From Nereocystis luetkeana (lineage: Eukaryota > Sar > Phaeophyceae > Laminariales > Laminariaceae), in contig JARUPZ010000014.1 in NCBI GenBank assembly GCA_031213475.1, positions 6,974,174 through 7,038,173 on the forward strand: a stretch of 64,000 bases of DNA. Direction: 5' to 3'. This document shows, piece after piece, positions 25,401 through 64,000 of the stretch. Both the position numbers and the translations under genes were made by a program. The notes beneath the pieces were generated by a model. It made no database searches. It saw only the letters and a list, made by a program, of their open reading frames with translations, and was not told the origin of the DNA. Positions within the stretch are counted from its first letter, which is position 1; every line of letters begins with the position of its first letter.

Positions 25401-25411
25401 ACTATCATCAT

Positions 25412-33974: not shown

Positions 33975-34021
33975 TCTTTGACTAACAATATTTGGCCCTA
34001 TTAACTATGGTCCCCCGTAAT
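33975..34021. mobile_element. Right part of the split MITE-A
   Basis: TCTTTGACTAACAATATTTG to CTATGGTCCCCCGTAATA. See the left part at 25,412-25,490. Confidence 0.85.
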
Positions 34022-38978: not shown

Positions 38979-40565
38979 TCAAAACATGCACTCAGTTTTT
39001 ATGCGGAATGAGGGGCTCCTCACTGCACCGTAGGACGGGATACAAAAACCAGATTTGCTGCGAGCCGTCGCGACCGTGCGAACGAGTCCGGCCTGGAGAG
39101 TCCCGTGATGAGGGCAGTGGGTGGGCTGCTTTCCGTCGAGTCCCAAGCGCGCTTGTTTCCTACACCTGTCCACTCGGCACCTGGTCTTGAAGTAGACCAC
39201 GTGGTCCCCCAACAGATCGCCCTTGTGGCTGCCGCATACGGTGGCTACATCATCGAGGTTTACACCCCAGCTCGGTAACCTGGTGCATCCGTTATGCGAG
39301 CAACGCCTGTTGCTGATGCCCATGATGTTTTCATCAGCGTGTTGCATGCAGCACGTTGCCGTTTCGCTACCCTCGGTATTGTAGACCGGTTGTTTCATGT
39401 ATGAGTCATGTGGGCAACGCCTTTCACCAACGATCACCATGCCGAATTCAGCATGTTGGTTGCAGTACGCCGCCGTCTTGCTACCCTCGACATTGAAATT
39501 TGGGAGCCTAGCGCAAGAGTCATATGAGCAACGCCTTTTACCAACCCTTACCATGCCGTCTTTAGCATGCTGCTTGCAGTACGCTGCCGTCTTGCTACCC
39601 TCGACATTGAAGCTCGGCTGTGTTGTGCAGGAATCATGAGAGCAGCGCTTGCTTTTAACGTCCACCATGTCGTCCATAGCATGCTGCTTACAGTACGCTG
39701 CCGTCTTGCTGCCCTCGGTGTTAAAGGTCGGATGTTTCGTGCAGGAGTCATGTAAGCAACGTCTGCTTTTAACGTCCACCATGCCGTCCATAGCATGTTG
39801 CTTGCAATAAGCCGCCGTACTGCTACCCTCGATATTGAAGGTCGGCTCTTTCGTGCAGGAGTCGTCTGAGCAGCGTCTGCTTTTAACGTCCACCATGTCG
39901 TCTTGAGCATGTTGTTTGCAGTACGCTGCCGTCTTGTTGCCCTTGGTGTTAAAGGTCGGTTCTTTTTTGCAGGATTCGTACGAGCAGCGCCTGCTTCTAA
40001 CGCCCACCATACCGTCTTCAGCATGTTGTTTGCAGTACGCTGCCGTATTGCTACCCTCGACATTGAAGCTCGGAATTCTTGTGCAGGATTCGTGGGAGCA
40101 GCGCCTGCTTTTAACGTTTATCATGTCGTCTCCAGCATGTTGTTTGCAGTATACTGCTGTCTTGCTACCCAGGATGTTAAAGGTTGGATGCTTTGTGCAG
40201 GAGACATGTGCGCAACGCCTGCTTATAACATTCACCATGTCGTCTTCAGCATGTTGTTTGCAGTACGCTGCCGTCTTGCTTCCCGCGGTGGAATAGATCG
40301 GCCGTCTCGTGCAGGAGAAATGTGAGCAACAATTTTTGGTAACGTTTATCATACCGTCCCCCGCATGTTGCTTGCAGTACACTGCCGTATTGCTACCCTC
40401 GACGTTGAAGCTCGGTTGTTTCGGGCAGGAGTCGTGTGAGCAGCGCTTGCGTGAAACGTCAACCATGCCGAATTCAGCATGTTGTTTGCAGTAAGCTGCC
40501 GTTACGCTGCTCCTGATGTTGAACTTTGCGCGTCTCGTGCAGGAAACGTGTGAGCAACCCACCAT
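38979..40565 (-). CDS. EsV-1-7 repeat protein, 13 repeats
   Basis: 528 residues in one exon. The start is ATG at 40565 (ACAATGG); the frame is open 17 codons further upstream but without an ATG. It consists almost entirely of ~38-39-residue repeats fitting C-x4-C-x16-C-x2-H-x12, e.g. CSHDSC, 16 residues, CKQH. I count 13: repeats 1-10 are canonical, repeat 11 has Tyr in place of the second Cys (CPHDSY), and repeats 12-13 are diverged and lead to a basic, repeat-free tail. The family is named after an EsV-1 virus gene and includes the Ectocarpus developmental regulator IMMEDIATE UPRIGHT; the Cys/His pattern suggests metal binding. The role of this member is unknown. It has no signal peptide or membrane segment. 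A second copy lies in the inverted arm at 63,742. Confidence 0.9.
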   Translation of the reverse strand: MVGCSHVSCTRRAKFNIRSSVTAAYCKQHAEFGMVDVSRKRCSHDSCPKQPSFNVEGSNTAVYCKQHAGDGMINVTKNCCSHFSCTRRPIYSTAGSKTAAYCKQHAEDDMVNVISRRCAHVSCTKHPTFNILGSKTAVYCKQHAGDDMINVKSRRCSHESCTRIPSFNVEGSNTAAYCKQHAEDGMVGVRSRRCSYESCKKEPTFNTKGNKTAAYCKQHAQDDMVDVKSRRCSDDSCTKEPTFNIEGSSTAAYCKQHAMDGMVDVKSRRCLHDSCTKHPTFNTEGSKTAAYCKQHAMDDMVDVKSKRCSHDSCTTQPSFNVEGSKTAAYCKQHAKDGMVRVGKRRCSYDSCARLPNFNVEGSKTAAYCNQHAEFGMVIVGERRCPHDSYMKQPVYNTEGSETATCCMQHADENIMGISNRRCSHNGCTRLPSWGVNLDDVATVCGSHKGDLLGDHVVYFKTRCRVDRCRKQARLGLDGKQPTHCPHHGTLQAGLVRTVATARSKSGFCIPSYGAVRSPSFRIKTECMF

Positions 40566-40726
40566 TGTGGCAGGATACTGCGGCAGTGAAGCACCTAGGG
40601 TAAAACGGGAGGGCACGTGAAGGCATCAAAGAGGTCTATGGCTGAGCCATCATACGTACTGCTTGTGGAGTTATTGGTAGCCGCTTACGGATTAGAGGGC
40701 CGCGAGGTCGAAAGGCGGACAACCTT

Positions 40727-40804
40727 GGTGTCACACGCTACATGTAACCACTAAGCTACCTTGGCGGGGGGCGGCATTGTATGCCGCTGTTTCGAAATAT
40801 GACA
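40727..40804. other. ~78-bp block present only in the left arm, tRNA A-box-like
   Basis: Absent from the right arm, where AACCTT-CGA-TGCTGGG is continuous. In minus sense it contains GGTAGCTTAGTGGTTAC, a good match to a tRNA/Pol III A box, and 45 bases later the shared TTTCGACCTC is weakly B-box-like. It may be a tRNA-derived fragment; no complete tRNA fold is visible. Confidence 0.35.
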
Positions 40805-41439
40805 TGCTGGGTGTAAAGCGTTTCGTTTGTCCTAGAAATACTCTCGAACGAGCCAGTTAGTGAAACTTGCTGCTTACAGTAGATGCATCCTACGGCAGGG
40901 CTGCACCTAGCATTTTATGAAGCACATCGCTTGGCCAGTGATTTACCCTAACGCACACCTGACGTTACCAAAGCTTTAATGTGCAACCTGATTAACATAG
41001 ATATTGTCTACGGGCTGGTTGAGGTGAATCCTGGAATAACAGTCAACAGTCGGAAGTTCACGTCGTTCTTGGGGGTAGACCCAAACCTTTTTCACACGTG
41101 TTCGATGACCCCTTGTCGTCCCGTTACCGGGCGGAGGTTCTACGTTTTTCTAACGTATGCCAGATATTTGTTTCTTTGTATATTGCTCGTGTTGTAGCTT
41201 AAGGGTGTCAGACAGAGGTCGTCATAACGAGTATGAATCACATCGAAGTCCGAACAATGGAAAATACGCTTTCCGTTTAATTGGTCTTGATAGGTAAAAC
41301 CAAACCACAAAGTATGACTTTCGGGGCACAACGAAGCGTTATACGGACGATACATCAAATAAGTAACCTACTGTTTTCGATGCGAATCTTTATCCAGTTT
41401 TTGACGTGAATCGATTTGGCTTATCATGTTGGAAGTGAG

Positions 41440-41694
41440 TCAACGCTCCCGGGAAATCCTGGTGCTTCGGTCGATTGCATCGGTGATCATGATGGAGACT
41501 ACAAAACGCGAAGATAAACGCGAAGCAACCGGCACAACAGACGCACCCGCACTCACAGACCATAGGTCAGCAAAACGCGGCGGTCGCAACTCAATACAAA
41601 TTAGGGTGGTCGCCAGCCCAGGCTCCCAACCATCTCGACCGTCGAACGGCACGAAGCCCAACCGATCGACCTCAAGACCGAACGTTACGCTCAA
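41440..41694 (-). other. Open frame conserved in both arms (unknown)
   Basis: Minus frame with VDRLGFVPFDGRDGW and RLSSRFVVSIMITDAIDRST. The right-arm counterpart (plus strand, part of 62,435-62,947) keeps the frame with roughly ten replacements in 85 residues, and the opposite strand is also open in both arms. Replacements are as frequent as expected without selection, so I do not claim a gene. Confidence 0.25.
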
Positions 41695-44600
41695 GACGTC
41701 GATATATCTGCAGGCGTTGAAGAGATCCTCCGCCAGCGCGAGAGGCTCTTGAGACCAGCAGCTTTCTAGGCTCCGCCGCCAGACATACCCAGAGGTGGGC
41801 GACCCCGCACACTCTACGACCCCTGCCGTCGCCCTCTTTCACTGCTGTTCGTTTTGCCACCTATGCGTGTGTGGTGTGCTGCGGCTTTCCTTTTTCCATA
41901 CATTTCGAACAAATTTGTCGTCGCTTCTCCCTAGCTGTCAAACACCGGCTTTCAAGAAAGTCTAATCGTAATATGATACCAAAAAGGGTACCTGGTATAT
42001 GTTTTCCAGATCGAAAAAGTTAGTTTACTGTTGATGCGGTCCCTTGCTATTTTTTGGCAGAAGAAGCAAAAGACGAAATCGCTTCGTCAAACGGTCCAAA
42101 CTGTGCTCGCAGAATCGTGTGCAATATTCCAAGACCGATATCCCGACAAAGTCTTGAATATTTTTTATTTGTCCGGAAAAAGTGAGAGTTATACGGTGTT
42201 GCCTCGAAGTCGCGTGGATATTTATATGTTCAACTTCAAATCGTTCAACACGAGTTCAATTGGTCCGATGCACTCACTTCATCGAAGTATTTCACTAACC
42301 ACTGCCCATATATGCCCCGGAATGCCTGGAACAGGCTTGTCCAGAATCACAAATAAAACCTGGTCGTTTCTTCGTACGGAATTGGCTAACTGTAGCTGCC
42401 CGTTTTCAAGGCCCGTGGTTTGTTGGAACACAATTTCGCCGTTAGCGCAAGTCCTACGACCCCCGAACAAAAACGGGCAGTGTCCACCTCTTCCGCTGTA
42501 TATTGTGGTCAGCGTAACACCTATTACGCGATGTTCGAGTAGATAATGTAAGCGGCATTCAGGTCTAAACTAATGTACGAGTTTGAGCTTGAACCAGCAG
42601 CTTCGACCCGTCATAGGTTCGTATCCAAACAAGTTTTCAATACACAAACAAAATTACAGCGAAAACAGTTGATTCCGCAGACATAATCTGCGAAAAGGCG
42701 CCAACCCTATCGTAGTACGCGTGGTTGAGCAGGCCAGAAGATGGTTCCGTCATATACCATCGGCTTCAGGGTAGTGTTGCACGGATTGGATGTGTGACGT
42801 GTGTGTCATTATCAAAGGTCTCTCTCGGAAAATTTCATGCTTTCCTGGTCGACACTCAAGAAACCAAGGGATGATTTAGACTCATCGTTATCACGGCATG
42901 CTTTCGAGTCAAGGCAGAAAAAAAGGCTGGCAAAAGCTTGTTGTGGCAACGAAGCGTTGAAGTGCTATACAATGGACGAGGGAGTGCCGTGGATTGACGG
43001 TATTTCGCCACATCTATAGCCCGGAGTACACTCAAAAGTCGGGATCGCCAATAAACGTTTGACGCTACATCTTCAGTGGACTCGCCCCCAGCACAAGGTT
43101 TCGCTTCAAAGCTCAATATGCTCTGGCCGGTGGAGCGCTTTACGTGAGCAGCTACCGGTTCGTATGAAAAAAAGAAACTATGCTTATCAGTGTCAGGACT
43201 AGCGCAAAGAAAGGTTGGTCGGGTTCCAGGAACACACCTCACGAGAATCGCGTTTCGAGCGCGAGATATTCACCTCTGAACCAGAGACGGACCACACGGT
43301 TCGATTGCCCACCAGTCGCTACACTCCCTAAACGAAAGGCACTTCGTAGCAAGGCAGCTTCCGTATAGCAGATTGATCTGCCTCCGCACCCAACCCCACC
43401 CGGACGAGGCCACCCTACTATTGTTCTGGTTCTCCAGTCTTGAGGAGCTCTAAGCCCCACCCAATCCCCGACTTTCGAGATGAATGAAAGCGCAACACCA
43501 AATGCCTAGGACCCAGCCCGACGTAGCGGTTGCATTTTTGCACTCAAACCTTTCTGACCGGTTGAGCTCCGTAGGTGAGAACCACCTGGTATTGTTTTCA
43601 CGTTTTCTAGCACATTTATTGTAGAACTATCAAATATCGGGAATAGAAACGTTGGTCGGATTGAGATGTTTTCGAGTTTTATTTCCGGTGAGACACGTTG
43701 AGCTCCCCGTGTGAGTAGCTCAGGGAAAAAGACACCACCCTCCGAGGGGCATGCGTCCTACGCATACACCGAGTAACACAAAATCATAAAAGATGGTGTT
43801 TACTACTATGTTCGGCAGCATTCCCATTCCCCGGCAGCCAGAAGTATTTCGTCAAAACAATCTTACCCGTATCGTGGCACCGGTGTTCGCATATATAAAA
43901 ATACACCCGGACGAGGGGACTGGGAGTCCAGCATCACGATTTCCGTGAAACACAGAGGCGTTATTTAATATTGCGCCGCCATTGGCCTACCTGCACATTG
44001 AACCCAGGACGTACTAGAGGCAGGGTCGGTGACAGCAATACATCGCTTCTTGTGGCTGAGTTTAGCACTACACTGCCCGAACCCGCCCCTCAGTCGTATT
44101 CGCCGAGCGCAAAAGCAAGGCACGGAGGACTGCAACTACAGCAAACAAGTAGCCAGATCAGACAAACGATAAGTTTTCACATGCTCGAAAATAAAAAACG
44201 CCCTTTTGACGTCCGTCGATATTTTGTTTTTTCACAAATACGTAAATGCAAGGTCTGCAGTATACTCTAGTACGGGATTGCGTAAACTTTACCGTCGGAC
44301 ACGAACCGCTCTTCTGAAAACGTAAATATCAGGGCACATACCACCTGTACTACTGCTCATGTTGTTCCTGTCAATTATGCCGTCGTTTGTTCTGATAACT
44401 GTGTTGGTCGTGATGGGACAGGAGGAATTGAAAATGAGTCCCGATCCAGAAAAAAACACAGCTCTTGGTGGAAACCATGTGATAGTAACTACTGTGTAGA
44501 GCACGATCGCCATCTCATTGAATCGCAGAACCTCATCCCATTTGGTGGGCATAGCGATAGACAGATTTGTCTGTCGGAGCCGAACGCAGCTGTGCGTCAA

Positions 44601-45887
44601 GCCATAAGTTGGTTTTTGCGTGAACAGATGGTGTAGAGAGCAAAATGTACAAACACTTGCACCAATACACCTCTAGTTTGGCGTTGGGTACTTTGACGGC
44701 CCGGGTAAGGTGCCGAGTCGGCATTAGGAACCGCACCCAATGCTTGGACAGCATCATAATCGGTTGATAACCTTAGTATTATTATACATGATTCGGAAAC
44801 CTGCTGGAATGACTCGTTTTTTTGTGCAAAGTCGACAAGAAAAACATCACCGGCCTAAAACGGTTGCCATACCCTGTGCCACAATTGTGGGAGAATGGTC
44901 AAAACCTGGTGCCATATTTGGATTGTTTGGACTTGTGCCCTCCCGAAAAAGTGGGAACAGGGGAAAAAATAAAAACACGATTGGGTCGAACCCTGTTCAC
45001 AGGACCTCATCGAGGCCGTCTTTTAATCCCTGCACAGCCCGTCACTGCACGTATGGCTACCTGGGCGTGGTATTCAGTAGCGGGCTTCTTGCGGTGCGCA
45101 TAACATCGATACACTAATAAACCCCGCAAATTGTACCAGAAGTCAAAGTACCAGTCTGGTCCTTCAGCTATACCTGGTAGGACCTTGGACAAGCCTGCAA
45201 ATACCGCAACACGCTTCCAACATACGAGGTAGTCAGTATATATATTAAGGCCACGCTGGCACTCAAGCGTTTCCTGGCCTCTCGGCTTCCGGTCACTCCA
45301 ATCTCTACATGTTTTATCGCAACAGGAAAAACAAACAACACCATTTCAATACGCTGCGTACAAAACTTGAACTCGAAAGAGGTTCATCACAGCAACTTGT
45401 GTTTCTCTTTATGTTGGCATCCCGCAGATTCTCACCAGAGGCCTACACCTCGACCTAGAGGTGCTGCGGTGGTCGCAACTAGACTAAGTTTGGTATACAG
45501 GAAATGCGACAAAAAACAACCATCAAGTAAAACATTGCACTTCACTTGCGGACAGGTAGAGCTCCTCACAGGAACTATCACCCCCCGCGAAATTGAGGGA
45601 TGCTGCTGATGGGGTGTGTGAGGGAGTCGGGTGCGCCAGATGGCAGTCGAACATAGCCAGAATCGACTCACGAGGTGTTTTCGTGTACTCGAAGTTGCGC
45701 GCGAGTCGCACAAAAAGCGGGCAAAAACCATGTAATGCTTTATTCACGAAAGGGAGCATAGCACAATGGCTACATCACCTATGAAGAAACGACCTTCACA
45801 AAACAGTGCTGTTCTCCAGTCGGATGGTGTATCTCTTCAGTAGTAACAGTCGCTATCGAAAATGCCGCACGGGGCGAAACTACGTTA

Positions 45888-45920
<33 letters not shown>
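45888..45920. repeat. (TA)n microsatellite
   Basis: Fourteen or more alternating AT units. Confidence 0.9.
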
Positions 45921-45921
<1 letters not shown>

Positions 45922-46987
45922 AGTTTTCCCTTCGGAGTGGCATGAGCGTAGCGTGTAAGAAGACTCTTGCCGAAATACCTATTGGGTGGGTTGGTTTGAC
46001 CTATTTCACCAATTGCAATTGTATGTGCTGCAGTTGGGGCAATAGCTTGAATGTACCTGTTAACAACCAAATATGTATTAGTAAAAAGAAAATACTAGTG
46101 GAACATACATGCAGATGAGGGTGACGCAAGAGAGCAGTTCTAATGACCGAAAGAGCAGGTAGTAATTATGTATTACAGCTGCTATGAGATATGAAGGCGA
46201 GATGAGCGTGATACCTGGTATGCAACTTCGACAGTAAGCACTTTCTCCACGAATCGCAGCGCCAGTAGACACATGTTCTGCGACACCTAAAGGTTCGACA
46301 ACGAACGAAACCTTTGGCGGACGCCCAAACCAACTACGACAGAAATTCCTCAAGGAAAAGCGTCTTCAACGAAACGTAGCAGTGGGCCCGGGGCCGGCGT
46401 GAAACGCAAAGAAGTCGAAGCGACGGGAGTAAGTCGTAGCAAAAATTCCCTTGCAAACGCGAATGTCGCTAATATCGACGGAATCAGCACCCTGGCAAAC
46501 ACCCAAGGTAGATTGAAAAAAACAGGATCTTTCGTTGCCCACAGCACCCAAAGAGGATGCGAAAAAGTTAGCTAGACCTTGGCACTCGCCAAGGCACTAG
46601 CGTGATGAAGGCGATGCAAAACCTGGCACTCTTCTTGGGTGGAAAAACCACCACCGGAACAAAATGAACCAGTCCGCTCCCCACGCTTGAACTCAAACTA
46701 CCCGCTGGCAGACTTGCAAGTACACGCACAGCGGATGTTTGCTGAAAGTATTAAAATATTATAGACGCAGGCGCACGCTGCAACGAAACGCCCTCAAACA
46801 CTTCTGTATTCAGACCCCAGGCGCAGACCAAAGGCAGATCAACTGTGTATGAAACTCTACCGGAAGATAATGATGGACACGAGAACAGACTCTTAAAAGT
46901 ACGAAGATCTATTCCGAGCCCGAACCGAGGAGATCGACCGACACAGCCTTCCCGCTTGGCGGCGCTTTTCTCCAGTTCCACCCGAGC

Positions 46988-48872
46988 CTATCCGCCGAAC
47001 TTCGCGTGGCGTTCGCCCTGAACTTGCTCGTTGTGGGCGATGAAGAGCTCCCTGGAGTGCTTGGAGCCCGAGAAGTACAGGGGGGGCTTGCACAGGCCGA
47101 TCAAGACGCCGTTGTCCTTGATAATTCCTTTGCAGTAGACACAATCCTTACGGACCTGCGAACATAGATTATAGACAACAAACCGACAGCACAAAGGAGA
47201 CATGTAAGACGCGTTGAATACAAATATTTTTGTTGGTATGAGTTTAGTTGACGAAGACTTTAAAAAGTGCAAATGCCAAAATCAGTTATACCTGATCCGT
47301 TTAAGCCAAAATCAGGTGCATACTAAATTAAAGTAAAAAACGCGGGCCACGAGCGGTGTTCTGTTCATGAAAGTCGGGTAAAAAAAGAAGCGTGCCATAT
47401 ATGGCCTCCAAAATCTAAGTCGTTTAGTTTTCTTTACGGTGTAGATACCACGGGCTTCACTTGGACCTGCAGAGGGTCACTGTATATAGGCTTCGTTTGT
47501 TCTGCGATGGCGAGGGCGCCAAGAAGAGTATTTACTTTGGCACCCCCCCACCGTTGACAGCTTAAACTTCTTCACCGTCCTCGCGGACTTGCCAGCTCGG
47601 CCCGAAATTATCTTGCCGTACCAAACCTGAGACAAACTCGACGCGGGGTGGTGCAGATAAAGACCATGGTGATGTATGGACCGCCGTGACCATAGAAAAC
47701 AACAAAGCAGCGGCAGTAGGACACAACAACTACCAAGTATTTAACAACTGAAGCACGTCGCACACCCCAAAGAAGGAAACAAGTGAAACCAGCATACTCA
47801 TGTATGCATATTTATGTAGATACGTACTTTGACGTACAACGTGCACGTGCGAGTACAGAGTTTATACGTTGCGTAATGCAGAAGAATTTCAACCGAGGTA
47901 GGGCAGACGCATACGGAGAGAAACAGCAGTGTACGTATGTGGCCTCTCTGATTGGTTCAAAGTTCGCCAAAATCAGTTGAAAGCTAGAGAGAGTAGAAAA
48001 AAACAGGTATAAGTTGGCCTTTTCGAGGCAAAATCAGTTACGATATCAGCCTGGACAATATTAATGGCAGGGCTCCTGGGGTGTGTTTTGTACTTGTTTT
48101 CAGAATGTAACTGATTTTGGCCGAAAGTGGCCAGGTATACCTGATTTTGGCAAGAACACCTTTAAAAACAATTGAAAAAAATACGCGTTGGCGCGCGCTG
48201 TAGAGGCAGAAATCACGAAAATGGTAAATACGAATGAGACGCGATGCATGATGTTGGCAAACCCTTACGTCTTTTTTCGCGGCAGAGACGGCGACGGCAG
48301 AGTCGGCAGCAGCATAAAACATGGAAACGTATTATAGTGTACTCAACGCCTGTCTGCTATCGTGTCGGGACAACAACAGCAGCAGCGGCGGTAGTCAACT
48401 GTCTCGGTGTGGAAAGAAACGCAGGCTGTGAACAACAACGGCAGCTGTTCGGGAAAAAAAAGTTGGTTATAGTGTGCAAAACAAAAACAACGTCATCAGC
48501 AGCGCATATACAAATGGCAGTACGCGTACTATACCTCTGTCTCGGTGTGAGCTCGTACCAACAAAAAAAATATGGACATTTGTTTTAGGATATACGTACT
48601 GCTGTAGTACCTGGTATGTATTTGTGAACAACAACAGCAGCAGCAGCCGCGGCGGTATAAATAGGTAGCACACAACAACAGCAACAACAACAGTAACAGA
48701 GAAGAACATAACACAACTCACCGCCACCTCCTGTCTCGAGCGTGAAGGACACGGTGCGGACGTCGATAGGCCTGGCGCATAATTCACAGTCTTTGGGCCA
48801 CTTCAAGATTATCCCGATGCCCGGGCAGGTGCCGTGGTCGCCGGTCGCAAAATCGACCTTGCCTCCAAAGTC
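46988..48872 (-). CDS. Unrecognised gene, three exon-like segments
   Basis: Segments in gene order: 48872-48722 (CAG acceptor; donor GTGAGT) encoding DFGGKVDFATGDHGTCPG, ILKWPKDCELCARPIDVRTV and SFTLETGG; 47626-47552 (CTCAG acceptor) encoding VWYGKIISGRAGKSARTVKK; 47155-46988 (TTCGCAG acceptor) encoding VRKDCVYCKGIIKDNG, LCKPPLYFSGSKHSRELFIA and a TAG stop. All are GC-rich at third positions in AT-rich surroundings, which supports coding. CELC and CVYC pairs suggest metal binding. Segment 1 ends in phase 1 but segment 2 starts in phase 0, so an exon is missing or a boundary is wrong. A CNRC pair upstream (about 48,900) may belong to an earlier exon. No family recognised. Confidence 0.4.
47272..47320. 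repeat. MITE-C-like fragment
   Basis: GCCAAAATCAGTTATACCTG and GCCAAAATCAGGT; the same words as the ends of the element at 47,966. Confidence 0.45.
47966..48152. mobile_element. MITE-C, nested inverted repeats
   Basis: Outer ends GCCAAAATCAG and CTGATTTTGGC; an inner pair GCAAAATCAGTTAC (about 48,030) and GTAACTGATTTTGGC (about 48,107). 187 bp, no coding capacity. Different from MITE-A and MITE-B. Confidence 0.6.
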
Positions 48873-49124
48873 CTGTCTCCATCATATAGCTGGGAGATGC
48901 AGCGGTTGCACTTTACAGTGGGATTGAGCACTGACTTGGACAGGGGGGTTCTGTTCGAGATGGGCTTCCAAGATCCTCCAGAAGAGGGCGAAGCAGAGGC
49001 GTATTGAAGGCAGAACCTTTAATATCGGCAGCAGCAAAAAGTTCAGTCCACTCTGTAGAAGCAGCACCACCAGGAAGAGCAGGCGATGCCATCTACCAGG
49101 CAGGAGCAGCACTAGCGGGAGGAG

Positions 49125-49260
49125 CACCCGATACCAACAGAAGTAGCGAAAGCAAAAGCAGCACCAGCAGGAGCGGCACCAGCAGGAGCGGCACGAGCAC
49201 CAGCGGCACGAGCAGGAGCGGCACGAGCAAGAGCAACGCCAGCAGGAGGCCAACTGGCCA
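49125..49260. repeat. GAGCGGCACCAGCAG minisatellite
   Basis: About eight imperfect 12-15-base units (GGAGCGGCACGAGCA). The Ala/Gly/Ser-rich open frames here come from the repeat. Confidence 0.75.
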
Positions 49261-51364: not shown

Positions 51365-52305
51365 TATTACCCTGTACAAAGTTGACTCTTTTCCGGTCTA
51401 GGTTAACTTTTTTAGCTAAAGGCGCGGGCCTGCTGTTGCCCTTTGGGCTGCGTGGCTCGCAGGGGGCCGGGTGAATGGGCCACGGCCTAGATCGGTGGCG
51501 TGTGCTCTGGGCCTTCAAAGTCGCGAATTTTGGTCCACGGGAAGCCATTCCGACCTGCTAGAGCCAAGCGGGACAATACATAGTTTTCTTTGGTGCTATG
51601 TGCTGCGGCTGTAACATGTCTGATCACACCGTCCCTCAAGCTCTTGACAACGAGGCAAACACCGAACAGCCGCAGGCGCTCATTAAGATTATCTGTATGT
51701 GACGGAAAGGTCGGAGCAGTTTTCTTGTGTGTGAGTGTGTGGGCCGTGATTTCTGTCGACTCAGAAAGTATGGACGAAAACATACCAGGGTACATAACGT
51801 CAAGAATGGTGCAATTGGATAAAGTGTGAGGCGCAGTGCGACGATGCGTACGAACTCATCACTTCTTCATGACTTCATCGGTATTTCAAAGCAAACCGCG
51901 CGGGCACGATACGCACTCAACAAGCAGCAGCGGTAAAATAGCAGGTTTCGTATGTAAAAAAAGTTGTGTTTGTGCAGTGTTGACTAGGAGATACAGTACA
52001 CTGTTTTAATCGACCACACGCCCTCCAAACTCGTTCTGCCACACAACAGCATGCTGCAGCACTCGGATAAATGGGGATGACTCTTAATTATACTGCTCCA
52101 TCCTTTTCAACTTGCGACAGCCTCGGGGTTCCAAGGCAAACAACGCACCAAAGGGGAACCTTGTAGACAAGTAATGGATAGATGAAAAAATCAAAAATGG
52201 GTTCGATTTAGGGAACTACGCTGGTTCGAATACGCATAAAGTTCTTGCTCATCTCGGATAGTTGCCCAGTCGTCAATACGCTTCAGATCGGAGTATTCAC
52301 CAGCA
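51365..52305. other. 941-bp block present only in the left arm
   Basis: The right arm joins AAAGTA directly to ACGCTGCACGC. No terminal repeats or clear target duplication. No gene seen. Confidence 0.65.
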
Positions 52306-53925
52306 ACGCTGCACGCAGCAGCATGCAAGCTCGGGGCGGACGCTCGCGTTGTCTTCCACTACCTCCCCCGTATGGCAGTGGTCTCGATATTTGCTTCCAC
52401 AACAAGCGATGCGCGTCAGCGCAAAGACGTTGTAATTTTTGCACTTATGAAGAAATCAGACTGCCGGCGTAAATCCAAAACGGAGTGACACTCTAGTGCC
52501 CAACCACCCCGCCATGAGGAAACCTAGGGCCCTGGGGCAGCAGTGTTTCACGCTGAAGTTACTTGTATCAACAAGAGCAGAGCTAGACTGGGCAGCAATA
52601 CCTATCAGTTTTTATCCTCCTTAGAAACAATCTCCAAGGTGCTGTGAGCCTCTCACCCATGATGCTGCTCAAGCCCACAAACAAGATGTACAACGTCTAG
52701 TGATTCCTGCAAAACGTTAGGTCGTCGTGCTCGAAGGCTCGGGGCAGATGAAAGCGAGGTTGGACTTAAAGCGCCAGACGCTACCGGCTGTAGGGCCCTG
52801 CTGGTTTCGGTGGGCCTCGAACGTGAGAACGTGTGTGTCATCACAAGACTTTAGGTTTTGCTATATTTTTAATGGCTTGTCAACATAGTTGGAGGCGGAA
52901 ATTTCGGGGGATGGGGGACGCAAACGTTTTTGGGTGGTCCACTACTGGCCCTGGCCTTTGGGGCATGCCTGAAATAACGCCTGAACGACCTTTTCGGAAA
53001 CAGCGTGCCTGAATGGCCTTCTCGTGCCTATCTTGACTATATTTCGCGAGGCAAAGCAAGGCGTGTCAAAACGACGGAAAAGGCACTCAAACATAACACC
53101 GTTGGGTGTGAACTCCCAAAGTTAGGGGAACGGGGGTTCTTTTTACAGCCGACAGACTACCACACGCACAACCCACAGCTAACGCACCCCGCATCGCCAC
53201 AGCTCGGCTAGCAGCCAGATCAGGTTGCTGTTGGAGGTACCACGACATCTAGCACCATGCCCGGCGGGGAAGGAAGTACGCACACACCAGCAATCTGCAC
53301 TTCCACGAAAGATGCACCTGGTGGCAGCGGTTCCTCTGCAGCGGCAGGGGTACCTGCAGCAACTACCGACTGGTCTACTGCAGCATCTATCTCGTGCTGC
53401 TGCAGCAGTAGTGTGCCATGGAGTGATTGATCATTGGTAGGCGTAGGGCACCACTCTTGCTTGGCGTTTTCTGATACACAGACTCTGCGCCCCCCCAGCG
53501 AACATCCGATACTATATTGCCGTCACGATGTAAAACTAGGCAACGGGATTTCAATGGTGTGGGTGGAGCTTGCTCGTGGTTTTGTGTCCAATGATTCCAC
53601 CGATGACATATCGTTAACGGGTGATGGGGCAGAACCCAACGCTACTACTCACTGACGTCTGTGGCTTGAGAATTTTTGAATTTTTGCTCGCCCACTCGTG
53701 CACATGTTGTATTTATTTCATTTCAAGTTATTGGTTTGCATCTTTGAGCAGGAGCGAGTCAAAGCTCGTTTTGTTTTATACATGGTACCAGGAACCTAGT
53801 ATCTGATACCTGGTATGTAGTTTCAGGAGAGCGTCTGATGTTCCAGGTAAGTATGTATACGGTACACGCGACTTACACAAAAAAACACCAAAACCCTGAT
53901 GTTGTGGTAAATATTGCTACTATCG

Positions 53926-54118
53926 TATTACGGGGGACCATTGCGATTGGGGTGGTAGTAAACACGTGGTAGGACCATAAACGGATGATAGTAACAATCG
54001 ATTGTACCTGGTAGGTTTGTAACGCAGCTCCTGCCCCCACAGTATAATTTGCGTATTACCTACAGAGTACGTATTACGGGGGGGTATATTAAACATCACC
54101 TACGCTACACCAGTAAAC
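53926..54118. mobile_element. MITE-A relics at the inner end of the left arm
   Basis: A worn copy from TATTACGGGGGACCATTG (53,926) to CCTGCCCCCACAGTATA, then half a second copy (GTATTACGGGGGGGTATATT) that stops at about 54,118, where similarity to the right arm also ends. Confidence 0.65.
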
Positions 54119-55654
54119 CACAGTAGTAGCCCATGACTCAGTTTACTCCGAAATCATTTTCACTCGATAAAAAGAGTGCAAGGGTTTTACATGCGTCCCC
54201 CTTTTCAACTTCCGACACCCCCCGGATATCATGCCACCCTCATCCCAAAGGGGAACCTTGTAATGTACCAGGTAGTACCAAAGGGCACTGGGCATTCCGC
54301 AATATCCAAAATGTACATTGTTTTTTACGATCAGACCACAACAGGATGACACTGCAGGCCCAACCCGAACGCCACGAGGGAGACGAAATACCTGAGGCAG
54401 ACAGCAGTGCCGCACACACCACCAACAAAGTTGGATACACAGCAGCAGATACAGACCCCTGGCGAATAGGCTGGTGGGGAGGACAAAGCCGCATCAGTTT
54501 GTAGCCTGGTGGGAAGCACAAAACACGGACAATATCAACAAATGTTGTGAGCTTCACCTGTTCGAGTCCACAGCAGACACGCAGGAGCACAACGCCAAGC
54601 GTGCCTGCCACTCTGCGTTCTGTTGTGCTCGGGCCCTTCAATCGAATGCAAAGGAATGACTCCTGTGGACAAGATGGCAGCTCTGTTCGCCTCGATGGGT
54701 AAAGCTTGCGTGCACACCAGTCTACGAGCGCGTGGGGTATGGTTCCAACAACCACCTTTAAAAAAAAGCTTCCACCGGGAAACAGGGGTTTCATGGAAAA
54801 CCCTCTTTCGTGACAGGTGAAAGAGCAGTACAGCTCACACAACAGTAAGTGTCGCATCCATAGAGCACATCAAACCAGGAGCCTCTAACATCACGGGGGG
54901 AAGACAAACAGGACCACAACTGCAGCAGGTGCGTTGCGTAGCTATTGCAGAACGATTTGATGGTTGGTTTTTGCGCTAGTAGGCGTGGTGGGAGACGTAA
55001 TACGCAATACCCACCTTTGCACGTGCGTACCGGTATTGCTACGACACGAACACCTGTCAACCCTCGCCCGGCGAGCTAGCTCGCTCTTTTGGTCACCACC
55101 ATCTCCCCCTGTCTCTCCAAAGAAGAGCAAGCGTAGATACAAGTGTGTTTCCGATCCAGTTCAAAAGTTTGAGCACATTATATGCCCTTCCTATTAGTGT
55201 TGCGCCTGTGTTGCACTCCCCAGAAAAATGGCGGATATTGCTTCGTAAAAGTCCTGACAGCAAAGCCAATGCGAGCAAGTGTGCCGCCATTTTTTCAAAA
55301 ATCTTTTCTGATACTTTCGGGTTTACACCCACCAGTGTATACCAGCGCAATCCCACCAACCAAGGATTCCCGAGACTGTTTTGGAGCGTTAGCGACACAC
55401 CAATGTACCAGCGTTGGGTGTGCTGCGTTCTATTTTCCGTGTTCTGTGTGCCTGCTGTGTGTCCAGCAGTGTTTTTTCCCTGTATGCTATGTGGTCTGTG
55501 TGCTTCCTGTGTGCCGTACGCTCTGGGTATTGGGTGCGTGCTGTGTGTGTTTGCTGTGCGCTGTGTGCTGTTTTTGGCTCCTTCTTTGCATCACAGTGTC
55601 ACGCAGTCCTGTCCCTGCTCTGCCTTAATTTCACACAGAAACTCTGTCCCCGGA

Positions 55655-55830
55655 TGCGTAAATGATACAATTTCGTCTTCTTTTCGTCCCTTTTCTTGTA
55701 CCCCGGGGCTGATTATACAGTGCCCCTCGCATTCCTGTTTTATCACGTTTATGGAAACCCCCGTCCACGCGTACACGATACAATTTCGTCTCCTTTTCGT
55801 CCCTTTTCGTCCCTTTCTTTGTTTGCGAGG
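55655..55830 (-). repeat. R5, reverse-orientation copies
   Basis: CTTGTACCCCGGGGCTGATT, GCATTCCTGTTTTATCACGT and a second partial unit; reverse complement of 24,957-25,180. Confidence 0.75.
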
Positions 55831-55841
55831 TCTTCTCGTTT

Positions 55842-56318
55842 TCTGCTCCAGCTCGAAACGTTTCCATTGAGTCAAAATTTGGCAGGGCAGATATGAGCTC
55901 CTTGGCGCCCTCCCGTGAGTGCCAAAGCAACAGCACTTTTAGTGTCCTCCTTTGGGGCGGACCTCCTCGCTGAATGGTTGAAATTGTGGTTCCAGGCGGT
56001 TGAATTTCCCGTTCCTTGTATTATCTACCTGGTAGCCAATAATTTGTTTCTGGTGTAGAACGGGAAAGAGAAACGGAGTTGAACGTACTCGTAGCTTCTT
56101 GGTTCTTCACCTGGTCGTTCTACAGAAAAAATACTTGGCTACAGTATATGAAACTGTCAATTCAAGCGCCTGGAACCACATTTCCACACTTCAGCGACGA
56201 GGCCCGCCCCGAAGGAGGACCATAAACGTTCTTTCGCTTTGGCACACCCTCGGGAGTACACCAAGGAGCTCGTATCTGCCGTGCCAATTTTTGGCTCGAT
56301 TGAAACGTTCGGAGCGGG
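55842..56318. repeat. Inverted repeat, ~157-bp arms, ~160-bp loop
   Basis: Arms 55,842-55,998 and 56,162-56,318 (GCCAAAGC, GTCCTCCTTTGGGGCGG, TGTGGTTCCAGGCG against their complements). Each arm reads as part of one peptide pattern (AKELISALPNFDSMETF; TKELVSAVPIFGSIETF), so it may be two head-to-head copies of one exon. Confidence 0.6.
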
Positions 56319-57019
56319 AGCAGAAAAAAACTGAGAGTATAAAAAAACAGCGTCAGATGTGCTTCCATTCGCTTTGTTGTCGGGCTTTTAGTGTTTTTTA
56401 GTGGGCGGTGCAACACTGGTGGTTGCTTGCTCACTGGTGGGAAATGTGTTTTCGCCCCCGATCCCCTGATGATATACCCGCCGCCATTTTCATTGCTAAT
56501 CCCGTCAAATGAAGGGGGCGCCTAATTTCAACCGATGGATTGGAAAAGAGAACAAACACCTAAAAATCCAAGCAGTGTAATCCCCGGGATTTGACCCCTA
56601 GCTGTCCCTGTCCACCAAGATCACAAAAATACACGAACGGCAAGAGCACGTAAGAGAGCAAGTGAGGAGCACCCCAAAGTACTGCTGCACCTTATCTATA
56701 TATGATTCTGATATTTGTCTGTATATGGCGCTACAGGAGACGATTAATACATACCTGGTACATGGGGTATGATACAAACACACTAATACACCCTTCCCTC
56801 CCTACTGCTGCCTGTGGTTGGCGTCTGCTTTCACTATCACTGAGGCTTGCGTACTACCGGTACTTGTTGGTCTTTGTTGTGTAGAGAGACTCAAAGCGAC
56901 AAGAACAACAGAGTATGCTCCTTACAGCAGCACAGCAGCAGCAGCAGAGGTAGATGCAAACTATTTCTATCCGCAGAAACACACGACCACCTTATAATTA
57001 AACTACCACCACCACCAGC

Positions 57020-57128
57020 TATTACGGGGGACCATAGTTAATAGGACCAAATATTATTAGTAAAAATTGTCAAATATGTAGGATTTTATGTATACCATAG
57101 GTCCTATTAACTATGGTCCCCCGTAATA
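57020..57128 (+). mobile_element. MITE-A, complete copy
   Basis: 109 bp with near-perfect ends, TATTACGGGGGACCATAG and CTATGGTCCCCCGTAATA. One of the best-preserved copies. Confidence 0.9.
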
Positions 57129-57168
57129 GGTATAGAACGAGCGTGGTGGAAGGGACGGAGAAAGCCAC

Positions 57169-57277
57169 TATTACGGGGGACCATAGTTAACAGGACCTAT
57201 GGTATACATAAAAACCTATATGTTTAACCATTTTTACTAACAATATTTGGTCCTGTTAACTATGGCCCCCCGTAATA
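57169..57277 (-). mobile_element. MITE-A, complete copy, opposite orientation
   Basis: 109 bp, 40 bases after the previous copy and reversed (the interior reads GGACCTATGGTATACATAAA). Both copies look young. Confidence 0.9.
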
Positions 57278-58496
57278 GTGTGTACGTTCATGATATAGGG
57301 ATGCTGCTGCGGCTTCTGCTGTGTGTGATGTTGAGACGGGGTGTTGTGTCAACAGAAAACGAGAGAAACAACAACAGGACCTTTGTTGCGTGCGTACTGC
57401 TATCTGGGAAGGCTACGATAAGCGATACATTGCGCGAGCGAGGAGCACCACGAACCCATTCACAGCAGTAGTACAGCAGCAGTAGTATTGGTTTTGTGTG
57501 CGTGTGTTATCGGCTAAGCCCAAGGCTTGCTTGCTTCTGCAGGTGCTGGTGCATTCGTATTTTATCGTCTCCTGTTGTGTCGTAGAGCAGTATCAGCATC
57601 ACAGATAGGTACATCAGTACTTCGGGTGTTGCCGCTTTCTCTCTCGCTCTCTCTTGCCCTTCGTGTGGTATTGTCTTCTGGGTGGGCGGGGACGGTGTGG
57701 GGTGAAATCCCAGGGTATCCGCTGCTCGGATGTTTGGGTGTTGGTTTTCTTTTGACAGCCCATGGGTTGTAGTTTGGCGCATCCCTCAAATGAAAAAGGG
57801 AAGTATTGCTAGAGCGGGGGTTCTCGTGTATGGACACAGTTTGACCCGCCAAAAACAACAGTACCCTACAACATCTGGCATCTGTTACCCAGAATATCCC
57901 CTCCCTGCCATTGGGCTAGAGCGCCCGAGCTGTACGTACCGCTTGGCGTTCCTGCTCCTTCCTGTTTGCCGTAGGTTTGAACATTGGGTGAGGCTCACAC
58001 CATTATTTCGAGCTTTTTTGCAACGAAGTAAAACTGGTGTTACTGACTGTAAGTCTTTGTGCTGCTCACCAGGCTATTGCCTCGGTCCCGGTCTGCTCCC
58101 CTGTTAATGAAAGTAAGCTGTGTGATGTGTGCGGCCCTCCGGTCCACGGCTTTCATTTCACCTCGTGGCGGTTTGTTGGGCTTCAGTGCCATTTCCTTTG
58201 GTCTAGTACGTACGACGTGCAGTAGTAGAAGGGAGGACATTTTGCGGATTGTCGAATGTCCTTTGTATTTTGATCAGGCTCAAAAGCATTTGATAATTGC
58301 TGTAGGTGTTGATTAAATCGGGTACACCTGTTCTATTTGAGTAAAAAACAGTCAGTATTGAAACCGAGTAGAATGCACATGCCACGAGCGGTGTTTCTGG
58401 CCATGAGAAATCACAAATACATACCTAGTATATTTTTGGCCTGAACATTGAGCGTATGATCTCCAAATCTAGAGTGCTTTGTTTTCTTTAAGGGAT

Positions 58497-58626
58497 CAAT
58501 GGCGACGTTGAGGGCACCGTGCTCGGCGACAGGTTCTACGGCAGAATGCAGGACGTGGCCTGGCCTGATTTGGTGGCGTGTCTAGAGTTCAGTGTGACCT
58601 TCGAACAGGAGATTGACGGTGTTTAG
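58497..58626 (+). other. Exon-like segment, relative of the 47-kb region
   Basis: After TTTTCTTTAAG the plus strand reads GDVEGTVLGDRFYGRMQDVA and LEFSVTFEQEIDGV, then TAG, with GC-rich third positions. The upstream text (CCACGAGCGGTGTT, CTCCAAATCTAGAG, TTTTCTTTA) parallels 47,365-47,445, so this is probably a diverged duplicate of that locus. Function unknown. Confidence 0.35.
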
Positions 58627-59639
58627 TGGCCGGCTTTCCGCAGGAACTCACCTTTGGCGGTCATTTCAACCGTGCGTTAGGGAGAGGAACGTGGCCGAGC
58701 ACTCTGAACTGGATTATAGTGTCGGATGATTTTGAGCTCTCGACCGTAGGAATCACTTCTTTCTTCTGCAAGGTCAGCAATCGAGGTGTTGATGCCTTGT
58801 GTATTTTGAGCAATTTCGAATTGCATACGTTGAATATGTCTTAATAGGTTGATATGTCTTGTGGTTCGGAAGTTGCAAGGCGATACGTACGGCGTTTTTC
58901 TTTCCCGCCCCATGATGGTTTTTCGGGGAAGGGAGTGGTGTGGTTCATGGAATATGTTTTTTGGCGCCCTTGGTTAAAATTATTCTCTTTTTTTCCGCCC
59001 CTGTTTTGTATTTTTTGGAGGGGGAGAGTAGCGGAGTAATGGATTTTGGGTTAGGCGCCCTTGGTTCGACATATTTAATGCGGGCTTGGGCCGAGATCAG
59101 CTCATGAATTACCGACATAACTGCCCCAGCGGATGTACCAGAGTTAGTGTGTGGAAACGTGTGTCTAACACACCCTCTGTATCATGCTGGTACGAGAAAT
59201 CTACGTGGCCTGAGCCAGTACATCGGTATTGGGTACACATGCCATGGAGATGAGGTTTAGCGGATGGCGGCTGCGCAGAAAAAGCAGTGCGCAACGTTTT
59301 GATGCCAAGTTCGAAGAACAACAGAGAGAGGTAGTGTTCCTACAACCAACGACAAATGGCTAACGGCGACGCTCTGCGACCCTCGGCGCCGCTGCTTTGC
59401 GCTTGCCGGCGTTCCTCATGATTCCAACTGAGAAGCCCGATTGGAGGAGGCACGACTGCCGTGGCGTAGCTGCTCCAGCAACTGCGTGCTGAGTGTGCTG
59501 TTGTGCCCTCGGGTCGGGTGTCGTGGTGTTGTAGCCGCCTGTAATATTTTCCCGGCATGATAGCGCCTTCTATTTCCCTTGGTTCTTTGTCTCACTCTGT
59601 TTACAAGTAGTGGTGTTTTGTTCTTTTTCTTTGTTTTCC

Positions 59640-60005
59640 AGCTCGTTTTTTTCAAGTGTTTGCCACATCGCCTGCGCGGGGGTACGACAGTTTGTTTTTT
59701 CTATTTTTTCTTTTCTTTTAATATTTCGATTTGTGTTCTTTGTTTTTGTTTTCTCTTTGGGTGTATCCTTTCGTTTCCCTATTTAATTGAATGTTTATGT
59801 CGTCCTGTCCTATCCATATTAGCATGATGACATTACATTACATTGCCCACTGCTGTGCTTACTGCATACCAGTACGTGGCAACGTAGAATCTCTCTGGCG
59901 TAGCTTTGTGACCACATAACTTGTATATCTTCTCGGTTCGAAGAATCGGCATGGACACTTGTTGTGGTGGATGTCGACGGATAGAAAGAACTGAAGAACA
60001 CACAC
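59640..60005 (+). repeat. R3, third copy
   Basis: TTTGCCACATCGCCTGCGCG, the pyrimidine-rich block, CTGCATACCAGTACGTGGCA and GACCACATAACTTGTATATC, as at 23,250-23,745. Confidence 0.7.
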
Positions 60006-60218
60006 CTAAACAATAAAAAAACATGATTAGTCAATCAACTTTTATTTTGGTGTTGTAATCACGACCAGATGATTAGAATGAAATTATCACGATTAATCAC
60101 GCCAAAAACACCTTAAATAATCAATAGTCAAATCAAGCAAGGCCGTATTTGAGTTGATTACCAACCCTGTACGAGATGGAGGATGAAGGTATGATATGCG
60201 TATTATCCACACGGTACG

Positions 60219-60480
60219 TAATACGGGTGACCATAGTAAAAAATACCAAATATGGATCGTAAAAATATCGAAACATGTAGGTTTTTAGGTGTAGCGTAGG
60301 TGCTGTTTAATATGCCCCACCGTAATACATGCTTTGTAGGTAATACGCAAATCATACTGCGGGGGCAGGAGCTGCGTTACAAACCTACCAGGTACATGTT
60401 TCGCGATTGTTACTATCATCCGTTTATGGTCCTACCAGGTATTTACTACCACCACAATCGCAATGGTCCCCCGTAATAGT
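60219..60480. mobile_element. MITE-A copies at the inner end of the right arm
   Basis: A full copy at 60,219-60,327 (GTAATACGGGTGACCATAG to CCCCACCGTAATA) and a worn copy at about 60,350-60,480. The left arm keeps only the half of the first copy that lies in the duplicated segment. Confidence 0.7.
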
Positions 60481-63400
60481 AGCAATATTTACCACAACAT
60501 CAGGGTTTTGGTGTTTTTTTTTGTGTAAGTCGCGTATACCGTATACATACTTACATGAAACAGCAGACGCTCTCCTGAAAACACATACCATGTATCAAAT
60601 ACTAGGTACCGGGGACCATGTATAAAACAAAACGAGCTTTAGCTTGTTCCTGTTCATAGATGCAAACCAACAACTTGAAATACAACATGTGCACGAGTGG
60701 GCGAGCAAAAATTCAAAAATTCTCAAGCCACAGACGTCAGTGAGTAGTAGCGTTGGGTTCTGCCCCATCACCCGTCAACGATATGTCATCGGTGGAATCA
60801 TTGGACACAAAAACCACGAGCAAGCTCCACCCACACCATTGAAATCCCGTTGCCTAGTTTTACATCGTGACGGCAATATTGTATCGGATGTTCGCTGGGG
60901 GGGCGCAGAGTCTGTGTATCAGAAAACGCCAAGCAAGAGTGGTGCCCTACGCCTACCAATGATCAATCACGCCATGGCACACTACTACTGCAGCAGCACG
61001 AGATAGATGCTGCAGTAGACCAGTCGTTAGTTGCTGCAGGTACCCCTGCCGCTGCGGAGGAACCGCTGCCACCAGGTGCATCTTTCGTGGAAGTGCAGGT
61101 TGCTGGTGTGTGCGTACTTCCTTCCCCGCCGGGCATGGTGCAAGATGTCGTGGTACCTCCAACAGCAACCTGATCTGGCTGCTAGCCGAGCTGTGGCGTT
61201 GCGGGGTGCGCTGATTGTGGGTTGTGCGTGTAGTAGTCTGTCGGCTGTAAAAAGAACCCCCGTTGCCCTAACTTTGGGAGTTCACACCCAACGACGTTAT
61301 GTTTGAGTGTTTTTTCCGTCGTTTTGACACGCCTTGCTTTGCCTCGCAAAATAGAGTGTTGATAGGCACGAAAAGTTAATAGGCACGAAAAGGTCGTTCA
61401 GGCACGCTATTTCCGAAAAGGTCGTTCAGGCATTATTTCAGGCATGCCCTAAAGGCCAGGGCCAGTAGTGCACCACCCAAAAACGTTTGCGTCCCCCATC
61501 CCCCGAAATATCCGCCTACAACTATGTTGACAAGCCATTAAAAATTATAGCAATACCTAAAGTCTTGTGATGGCACACACATTCTCACGTTCGAGGCCCA
61601 CCGAAACCAGCAGGGCCCTACAGCCGGTAGCGTCTGGTGCTTTAAGTCCAACCTCGCTTTCATCTGCCCCGAGCCTTCGAGCACGACGACCTAACGTTTT
61701 GCAGGAATCACTAGACGTTGTACATCTTGTTTGTGGGCTTGAGCAGCATCATGGGTGAGAGGCTCACAGCACCTTGGAGATTGTTTCTAAGGAGGATAAA
61801 AACTGATAGGGATTGCTGCCCAGTCTAGCTCTGCTCTTGTGGATACAAGTAACTTCAGCGTGAAACACTGCTGCCCCAGGGCTCTAGGCTTCCTCATGAC
61901 GGGGGGGTTGGACGCTAGAGTGTCTCTCCGTTTTGAATTTACGCCGGCAGTCTAATTCTGTTCATAAGTGCAATAATTACAACGTCTTTGCGATGACGCG
62001 CATCGCTTATTGTGGAAGCAAACATCTAGACCACTGCCATACGGGAGAGGTGGTGGAAGACAACGCGAGCGTCTGCACCGAGCTTGCATGCTGCTGCGTG
62101 CAGCGTTACTTTCCTTTCATGCCTACCTAGTCATAAGGAACTAGAGGGTGTCGATGCCCATTCTTGAGTGTTATTCAAGTAATTCAATGTTGGTTCCTAC
62201 TCTCTTTTTTAACCTGACGTTGATTCACGCCAGTACTCGTACAACCCTCGGATCGATATGGGCCAACCACACGCCTGCCATCGATCTGAACACATCACAA
62301 TTGTGTGATAAAAGCCTTCGTCGCTGTTGCTTTTGGTTTTAACCTCCTTTAAATATACACAGCAGGGGTAGTCAGCGATCAGACTAAACAAAACACGTGA
62401 CAGAAAGCACGTTTGAAAACCCAAAAAAGGATGTTTGGGTACCGTAGGTTGGAACGCACGCTCCTCCCTATATATGCCGGCATGTATGGGAAAAGGAAAA
62501 CCGCAGCACACCACACACGCACAGGTGGCAAAACGAACAGCAGTGGAAAGAGGCGACGGCAGGGGTCGTAGAGTGCGCGCGGGGTCGCCCACCTCTGGGT
62601 ATTTCTGGCGGCGGAGCCTAGAAAGCTGCTGGTCTCAAGAGCCTCTCGCGCTGGCGGAGAATCTCTTGAACGCCTGCAGATATATCGACGTCTTGAGCGT
62701 GACCTTCGGTCTTCAGGTCGACCGGTTGGGCTTTGTGCCGTTTGACGGTCGAGACGGTTGGAAACCTGGGCTTGCGACCACCCTAATCTGTATTGAGTCG
62801 CCATCGCCGCGTTTTGCTGACCTATGGTCTGTGAGTTCGGGTGCGTATGTTGTACCTGTTGCTTTGCGTTTATCTTCGCGTTTTGTAGTCTCCATCATGA
62901 TCACCGATGCGATCGACCGAAGCACCAGGAGTCTTCGGGAGCCTTGACTCACTTTCAACATGATATGTCCAAATTGATATCACGTCAAAAACTGGATAAA
63001 GATTCGCATCGAAAACAGTAGGTTACTTAGTTGACGTACCGTCCGTATAACGCTTCGTTGTGCCCCGAAAATCATTTGTGGTTTGGTTATACCTATCAAG
63101 ACCAATAAAACGAAAAGAGGATTTCCCATTTTTCGGACTCCGATGTGATTTATCCTCGTTATAACGACCTCTGTCTGACACCCTTAAGCTACAATACGAG
63201 CAATATACAAACAAATATCTGGCGTGCATTAGAACAAAAGTAGAACTCCCGCCCGGTAACGGGGCGACAAGGGGTCATCGAACACGGATGAAAAAGGTTT
63301 GGATCTACCCCCAAGAACGACGTCAACTTCCGACTGTTGACTGTTATTCCAGGATTGACCTCAACCAGCCCGTAGACAATATATATGTTAATCAGGTTGC

Positions 63401-64000
63401 ACTTTGAAGTTTCGGTAACGTCAGGTGTGCGTTAGGGTAAAACACTGCTCAAGCGAGGTGCCTCATAAAATGCTAGGTGCACCCCTGCCGTAGTATGCAT
63501 CTACTATAAGCAGCGAAATCACTAACTGGCTCGTTCGTGGGCACTTCTTGGACAAACGAAACGCTTCACACCCAGCATCGAAGGTTGTCCGGCTTTCGAC
63601 CTCGAGGCCGTCCAATCCGTAATAGGTTACCAAAAACTCCACAAACAGTAGGTGTGATGGCTCAGCCGTAAACCTCGTTGCTGCCTTCACGTGCCCTCCC
63701 GTTTTGCCCTAGGTGCTTCACTGCCGCACTATCCTGCCTCAATGGTGGGTTGCTCACACGTTTCCTGCACGAGACGCGCAAAGTTCAACATCAGGAGCAG
63801 CGTAACGGCAGCTTACTGCAAACAACATGCTGAATCCGGCATGGTTGACATTTCACGCAAGCGCTGCTCACACGACTCCTGCCCGAAACAACCGAGCTTC
63901 AACGTCGAGGGTAGCAATACGGCAGTGTACTGCAAGCAACATGCGGTGGACGGTATGATCAACGTTACCAAGAATAGATGCTCTCATTTCTCCTGCACGA
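60275..64000. repeat. Right arm of the large inverted duplication (reaches the window edge)
   Basis: Reverse complement of the left arm, without its 9.08-kb, 0.94-kb and 78-bp blocks. It continues beyond 64,000. Confidence 0.85.
63742..64000 (+). CDS. EsV-1-7 repeat protein, second copy, 5' part
   Basis: ATG at 63742 (CAATGGTGGG), open to the window edge (86 codons). Repeats 1 and 2 are complete (CSHVSC, CSHDSC, each followed by C-x2-H after 16 residues) and repeat 3 begins (CSHFSC). It corresponds to the first residues of the minus-strand copy at 40,565 with a few replacements. Both copies keep all Cys and His in this part, so this one may also be functional. The two genes face away from the shared spacer. 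Confidence 0.85.
   Translation, partial: MVGCSHVSCTRRAKFNIRSSVTAAYCKQHAESGMVDISRKRCSHDSCPKQPSFNVEGSNTAVYCKQHAVDGMINVTKNRCSHFSCT

Follow-up and report, generated by a model that had tools for sequence, protein, structure and literature searches.

EsV-1-7 genes at the locus

The locus occupies the right-hand part of the window, by which we mean the whole stretch of 64,000 nucleotides analysed here. It contains an EsV-1-7 gene on the minus strand, the start of another on the plus strand at the window end and, between them, two arms of an inverted repeat around a spacer (Table 1). The protein of the left gene matches PF19114 in 12 stretches (E 2.2e-151, 491.8 bits against a Pfam cut-off of 25), with a repeat unit that is mostly 114 bp (38 aa) long. 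The right arm carries two PF19114 stretches (E 2.9e-23, Pfam), and as far as the window reaches its gene comprises the first two repeats and the beginning of the third, in register with the left gene. The repeats show the spacing C-X4-C-X16-C-X2-H, which we take to be the PF19114 cysteine motif of the EsV-1-7 family. By the repeated occurrence of this motif, both the left gene and the right arm are assigned to that family.

Table 1. Features of the inverted duplication (positions are those of the window)
Feature	Position	Strand or orientation	Details
Left EsV-1-7 gene	38979..40565	-	ATG 40565, open to stop at 38979, 528 aa
Right EsV-1-7 gene start	63742..64000	+	ATG 63742, 86 codons within window
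Left arm	40307..54119	+	Self-BLAST, global alignment
Right arm, reverse complement of left	60280..64000	-	Cut by window end; self-BLAST, global alignment
Block 1	40307-40726 / 64000-63581	inverted	93.8% (self-BLAST)
Block 2	40804-41903 / 63578-62482	inverted	91.0% (self-BLAST)
Block 3	50984-51364 / 62485-62107	inverted	92.7% (self-BLAST)
Block 4	52302-54119 / 62110-60280	inverted	92.8%, or 92.7% in other direction (self-BLAST)
77-bp left-only stretch	40727..40803		75 in global alignment
9,080-bp left-only stretch	41904..50983		ACAT at both edges, single ACAT in right arm
937-bp left-only stretch	51365..52301		Edges AGTA/AGCA
Identical tract common to both arms	52601..52772		172 bp, longest identical run
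Long low-divergence tract 1	right 61871-61487		8 mismatches in 384 (two-state HMM)
Long low-divergence tract 2	right 61191-60677		8 mismatches in 514 (two-state HMM)
Spacer	54120..60279		6,160 bp
Truncated MITE-like copy, left arm	54072..54111	-	Model 57-110, 15.9 bits, matched out to 54125
Complete MITE-like element	60219..60327	+	Model 3-110 of 111, 70 bits
Two 111-bp MITE-like copies, spacer	57019-57129, 57168-57278	opposite orientations	38 bp apart
Further repeats in spacer	55656-55808, 59589-59986		Self-BLAST

The repeats of the two genes are most alike when paired in register, with 98.2% identity between the first repeats of the two genes, 95.6% between the second, and 95.5% for the 22-base start of the third right repeat against its left counterpart. 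Out-of-register pairings of the first two right repeats range from 34 to 77% (best 77.2%), and the short piece of the third reaches 81.8% at best. This pairing in register places the copying of the gene after the multiplication of its repeats. Across the 86 shared codons there are three synonymous and five non-synonymous differences (dS 0.058, dN 0.025), too few to make their ratio of 0.42 a firm one. Divergence amounts to 3.1% (8/259) in coding as against 6.6% (227/3,430) in non-coding DNA, and the low coding value is what selection alone would produce.

Of 7,992 candidates scored against the left protein, 417 are relatives at E up to 1e-3; identity to the 120 of these that were listed lies between 29 and 63%, with 32 to 95% of the query covered. 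The listed ones that carry a species name are all from brown algae: Laminaria digitata (2), Sphacelaria rigidula (2) and Pylaiella littoralis (1). Together with the Ectocarpus names among the relatives of a neighbouring retroelement (see below), this makes a brown alga very likely as the source of the DNA. A further Pfam match of this protein, to PF12815 (CTD; 49 bits against a cut-off of 25.4, E 9e-13), has no single stretch that passes, and was set aside as a probable cross-match to the repeats. Apart from PF19114, nothing reached E 0.5 in the six-frame Pfam search of the right arm and of 50984-54119; the interval 40566-41903 was covered by this search through its right-arm counterpart only. 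Scans of IMG/VR with the EsV protein and with a 22-mer of the MITE-like elements described below gave no match, records of the source or of a very near genome having possibly been excluded from them.

Geometry of the inverted repeat

In a self-BLAST of the window, four inverted blocks in collinear order link 40307-54119 to 64000-60280, with identities of 91 to 94%. With E-values from 0 to 3e-159 the pairing is beyond chance, and a chance origin was discarded. The four blocks form three stretches, the first of which is interrupted by the 77-bp gap. In the global alignment, for which the two large left-only stretches (9,080 and 937 bp) were set aside, the arms span 3,689 columns with 235 mismatches (136 transitions and 99 transversions), that is 93.6% identity, with small indels (1 to 17 bp) in either arm. 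Segmental duplications are usually defined by copies longer than 1 kb with an identity of at least 90%, and by a low copy number in the genome; the arms, collinear and inverted, reach this length and this identity and probably represent an inverted segmental duplication. When the right arm was compared with the entire window at E 1e-5, 12 rows were returned: one is the arm itself, four are the blocks of the left arm, and seven fall on the EsV repeats of the left gene. These repeats aside, no third copy of the arm was found in the window.

These comparisons bear out the initial annotation, made from the sequence alone, in its central claim of a diverged inverted duplication with three collinear stretches in reverse complement, a 6.2-kb spacer and two divergently oriented EsV-1-7 genes, of which the arms contain the starts. 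Its statement that both outer ends fall in EsV-1-7 genes is true of the window rather than of the duplication. The right "end" is the edge of the window at 64000, up to which the homology runs, and no end of the homology itself.

Stretches present in the left arm only

As judged from their edges, the 9,080- and 937-bp stretches may be either insertions that made 4-bp target duplications or sequence that the right arm lost by deletion at microhomologies. We regard insertion of the two as a serious, if tentative, candidate: ACAT flanks the longer stretch and occurs once in the right arm, and AGTA/AGCA behaves likewise for the shorter one. On the other hand, a microhomology deletion produces the same pattern, one of the two 4-bp overlaps is imperfect (AGTA/AGCA), and the 9-kb stretch is devoid of an LTR, of matching terminal inverted repeats and of any coding domain above cut-off. 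The six-frame Pfam search at E up to 1 gave for it two DUF matches below cut-off, with E 0.17 and 0.65, in one frame.

The 77-bp piece contains a perfect match, on the minus strand at 40745-40758, to TAGCTTAGTGGTTA, presumably a tRNA box-A-like string, and may be a fragment of a tRNA-derived SINE. With up to two mismatches allowed, the string matches twice in the window against 0.58 matches expected, a number that 14 of 100 shuffles attain. Rfam gave no match, either in the whole window at gathering scores or in 40500-41000 at a lax threshold, and ARAGORN found no tRNA.

Inner junctions and spacer

On the right, a complete MITE-like element straddles the inner boundary of the arm at 60280 and continues into the spacer. 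At the left inner edge, where the truncated copy lies, close pairing of the arms ends at 54111, or at 54119 with mismatches. As the element is complete on the right and halved on the left, these junctions are most simply read as an old connection to the spacer, kept by the right arm, and a probably new inner junction on the left. The element could also have been cut by a deletion that came later in the left arm; such an event would leave the same picture and undo this argument from polarity, and the model match of the left copy is weak (15.9 bits). A second, weaker MITE-like stretch is common to both arms (60366-60479 and 53926-54032) and is therefore older than the copying. The MITE-like family covers 2.8% of the window, which puts the chance of a breakpoint inside one of its members at about 2.8%; such a coincidence is not very improbable, and the figure is weak as the test was made after the fact.

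Miniature elements of the Tc1-Mariner type are recognized by a TA target duplication together with terminal inverted repeats. The elements of the window, about 110 bp long, have inverted ends, in that one and the same element matches on both strands, and their ends read TA, by eye only. In being short, in having inverted and TA ends and in occurring in several copies within the window they resemble the Tc1-Mariner-type MITEs of Ectocarpus, as described in PMC12477816, but TcMar-N1_Ec32, the one named there, measures 217 bp, about twice as much, and any link of the present elements to a transposase is putative.

In a six-frame Pfam search of the spacer nothing matched at E up to 0.5. The two oppositely oriented MITE-like copies within it form a 260-bp palindrome (57019-57278), and self-BLAST also detected a palindrome of 489 bp in 55839-56327, which matches itself in inverted orientation at 74%.

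Uneven divergence between the arms

Mismatches between the globally aligned arms vary from 0 to 14 per 100 columns. Calculated per 100 columns over the full alignment, the dispersion index is 2.71 versus 0.94, a value reached in none of 2,000 permutations. For the non-coding part alone it is 1.88 in one phase (2/5,000 permutations) and 2.30 when averaged over phases (0/2,000), with the same result (0/2,000) at 50- and 200-base windows. An identical run as long as the longest one observed (172) appeared in 6 of 5,000 permutations. A two-state HMM separated divergence classes of 2.0% and 8.8% and delineated four low-divergence tracts, of which two are long; its gain in fit of 33.7 was equalled in 0 of 200 permutations, where the maximum was 10.1. 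Since the non-coding heterogeneity is itself significant, the unevenness is real and extends beyond the gene alone.

The initial annotation had noted this unevenness and had illustrated it by three differences in about 205 bases near 52.7 kb and many more near 41.5 kb. The unevenness is confirmed, as three 205-bp stretches near 52.7 kb have 1 to 2 mismatches and two near 41.5 kb have 18 and 20. The low value stands as low, but the count itself is 1 to 2 instead of three.

A protein gene was considered and rejected as the cause of the tract at 61191-60677. In the left copy, a 1-bp indel at 60813 shifts the 126-aa stop-to-stop frame (60626-61006) that overlaps the tract, which makes protein constraint there unlikely. 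Mismatches are somewhat over-represented in CpG (49/235, as compared to 486/3,689 columns). The patchy gene conversion proposed in the initial annotation gains from the heterogeneity outside the coding part, and past conversion between the arms is a possible and fair reading of the pattern; it is not more than possible, the comparison being one between the two arms. For the same reason uneven constraint (regulatory or RNA) or uneven mutation fits the patchiness too.

Origin of the duplication

As assembled, the inverted duplication is real and is ageing. It probably arose as a local inverted segmental duplication through break repair, later eroded by indels, which is a known kind of event. This origin is favored by the four inverted blocks, by the element that is halved on one side and complete on the other, by the in-register pairing of the repeats, by the lower divergence of coding relative to non-coding DNA and by the fact that, EsV repeats of the left gene aside, the right arm matches nothing else in the window at E 1e-5. 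A segment of at least 3.7 kb, comprising the 5' part of the EsV-1-7 gene and DNA upstream of it, would have been copied in inverted orientation 6.2 kb away; the copies themselves lie in the sequence, and their making in the repair of a chromosome break is what we infer from them. The right copy would have retained the old connection to the spacer with the complete MITE-like element, and the halved element would mark the newly made inner junction of the left copy. The copies would then have diverged, to about 6.6% in non-coding DNA, with the coding start staying more alike between them, while three larger stretches (9,080, 937 and 77 bp) and small indels on both sides were presumably lost or gained and short tracts may have been exchanged by conversion. 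Judging from the sequence, the inverted structure itself shows no sign of any role.

The duplication may also have taken the form of a staggered-break inversion, in which the 6.2-kb spacer was inverted and the arm lying between the staggered nicks was duplicated at both ends. If so, the left arm keeps the old outer flank together with the whole gene, and the right gene is cut short past 64000. Such an event accounts for an old inner flank at one copy and a whole gene at the other: the frame of the left gene is open and holds 12 Pfam stretches, and the right arm seems to retain the old inner flank, as the model demands. There is a precedent in Drosophila, where, according to PMC3355041, inversion ends carry inverted duplications of about 1, 4.3 and 7 kb and, in one case, one duplicate is intact and the other eroded. 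The D. mojavensis inversions 2h and 2q, as described there, resemble the present locus in the several-kb non-repetitive inverted copies that flank a segment, in the erosion of one copy and in the partial duplication of a gene; there, however, the event is backed by an uninverted relative, whereas here we have a single locus. The inner ends predicted by a duplicative insertion of the left copy are identical to those of the inversion, and the outer end on the right, which would be decisive, falls past the window. We therefore consider this particular form somewhat unlikely.

Two dispersed repeats or transposon-like units, each carrying an EsV-1-7 gene and inserted nearby in opposite orientation, are an improbable source of the arms. 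Several transposable elements do lie within the window, and a Tc1-Mariner transposase of Ectocarpus has acquired an EsV-1-7 domain, as reported in PMC12477816. Against this, six-frame searches of the right arm, 50984-54119 and the spacer revealed no domain besides EsV-1-7 at E up to 0.5, and the window holds no third copy of the arm at E 1e-5. An error of assembly that joined two haplotypes or paralogous contigs in opposite orientation is less probable still, in view of the 6.4% divergence between the arms, the extra 10 kb or so in the left arm and the 6.2-kb spacer between them; moreover, no stop interrupts the coding frame of either copy within the window. A fold-back artefact would be expected to give nearly identical arms, and in its near-perfect form it is ruled out by the same divergence.

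Bearing on the EsV-1-7 family

The expansion of this family in brown algae has already been published, and one of its genes, IMMEDIATE UPRIGHT, acts in early development (both according to PMC7457493). The left gene resembles the family in 12 PF19114 stretches far above cut-off, but it is 29 to 63% identical to the relatives listed. As EsV-1-7 genes are expanded in brown algae, the origin of their copies is of interest, and the locus offers a diverged pair of them with a readable inner breakpoint. A search of the literature by title and the start of the abstract (Macaisne 2017 and Denoeud 2024 were outside its scope) returned nothing on how these genes duplicate. The initial annotation had gone further and suggested that the duplication could reveal a mechanism of the spread of the family, which a single pair does not establish: this one unreplicated case, whose outer end lies past the window, shows that the start of such a gene can be copied by inverted duplication, not how the family grew. 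One might imagine palindromic MITEs, taken to be frequent in this genome, as points of breakage or strand switching that copy nearby EsV-1-7 genes in inverted orientation, the pairs being patched by conversion afterwards, as one engine of the expansion; we think this idea very probably wrong.

Other elements in the window

To the left of the locus, an LTR retroelement occupies 25491-33975. Its 330-bp LTRs are 100% identical, and its insertion is therefore probably recent. From the domain make-up of its relatives we take it to be of the Ty3 type. Its frame has 59 relatives at E up to 1e-100, and those named by organism are from Ectocarpus sp. CCAP 1310/34 (5), a Pseudomonadota MAG (1) and the flatworm Macrostomum lignano (1, 40% identity). 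The retroelement sits within a MITE-like copy, model positions 44-110 of which lie at 25411-25491 and 1-47 at 33977-34023, the two halves sharing about 4 bases, the pattern expected of a target duplication. Further to the left, a 195-bp inverted pair at 94.9% (15302-15496 and 16288-16480, about 0.8 kb apart) overlaps a 291-aa stop-to-stop frame (15408-16283) and may represent a foldback element or a short DNA transposon, and 11774-12091 is a tandem array of about 11 copies of a 29-bp unit.
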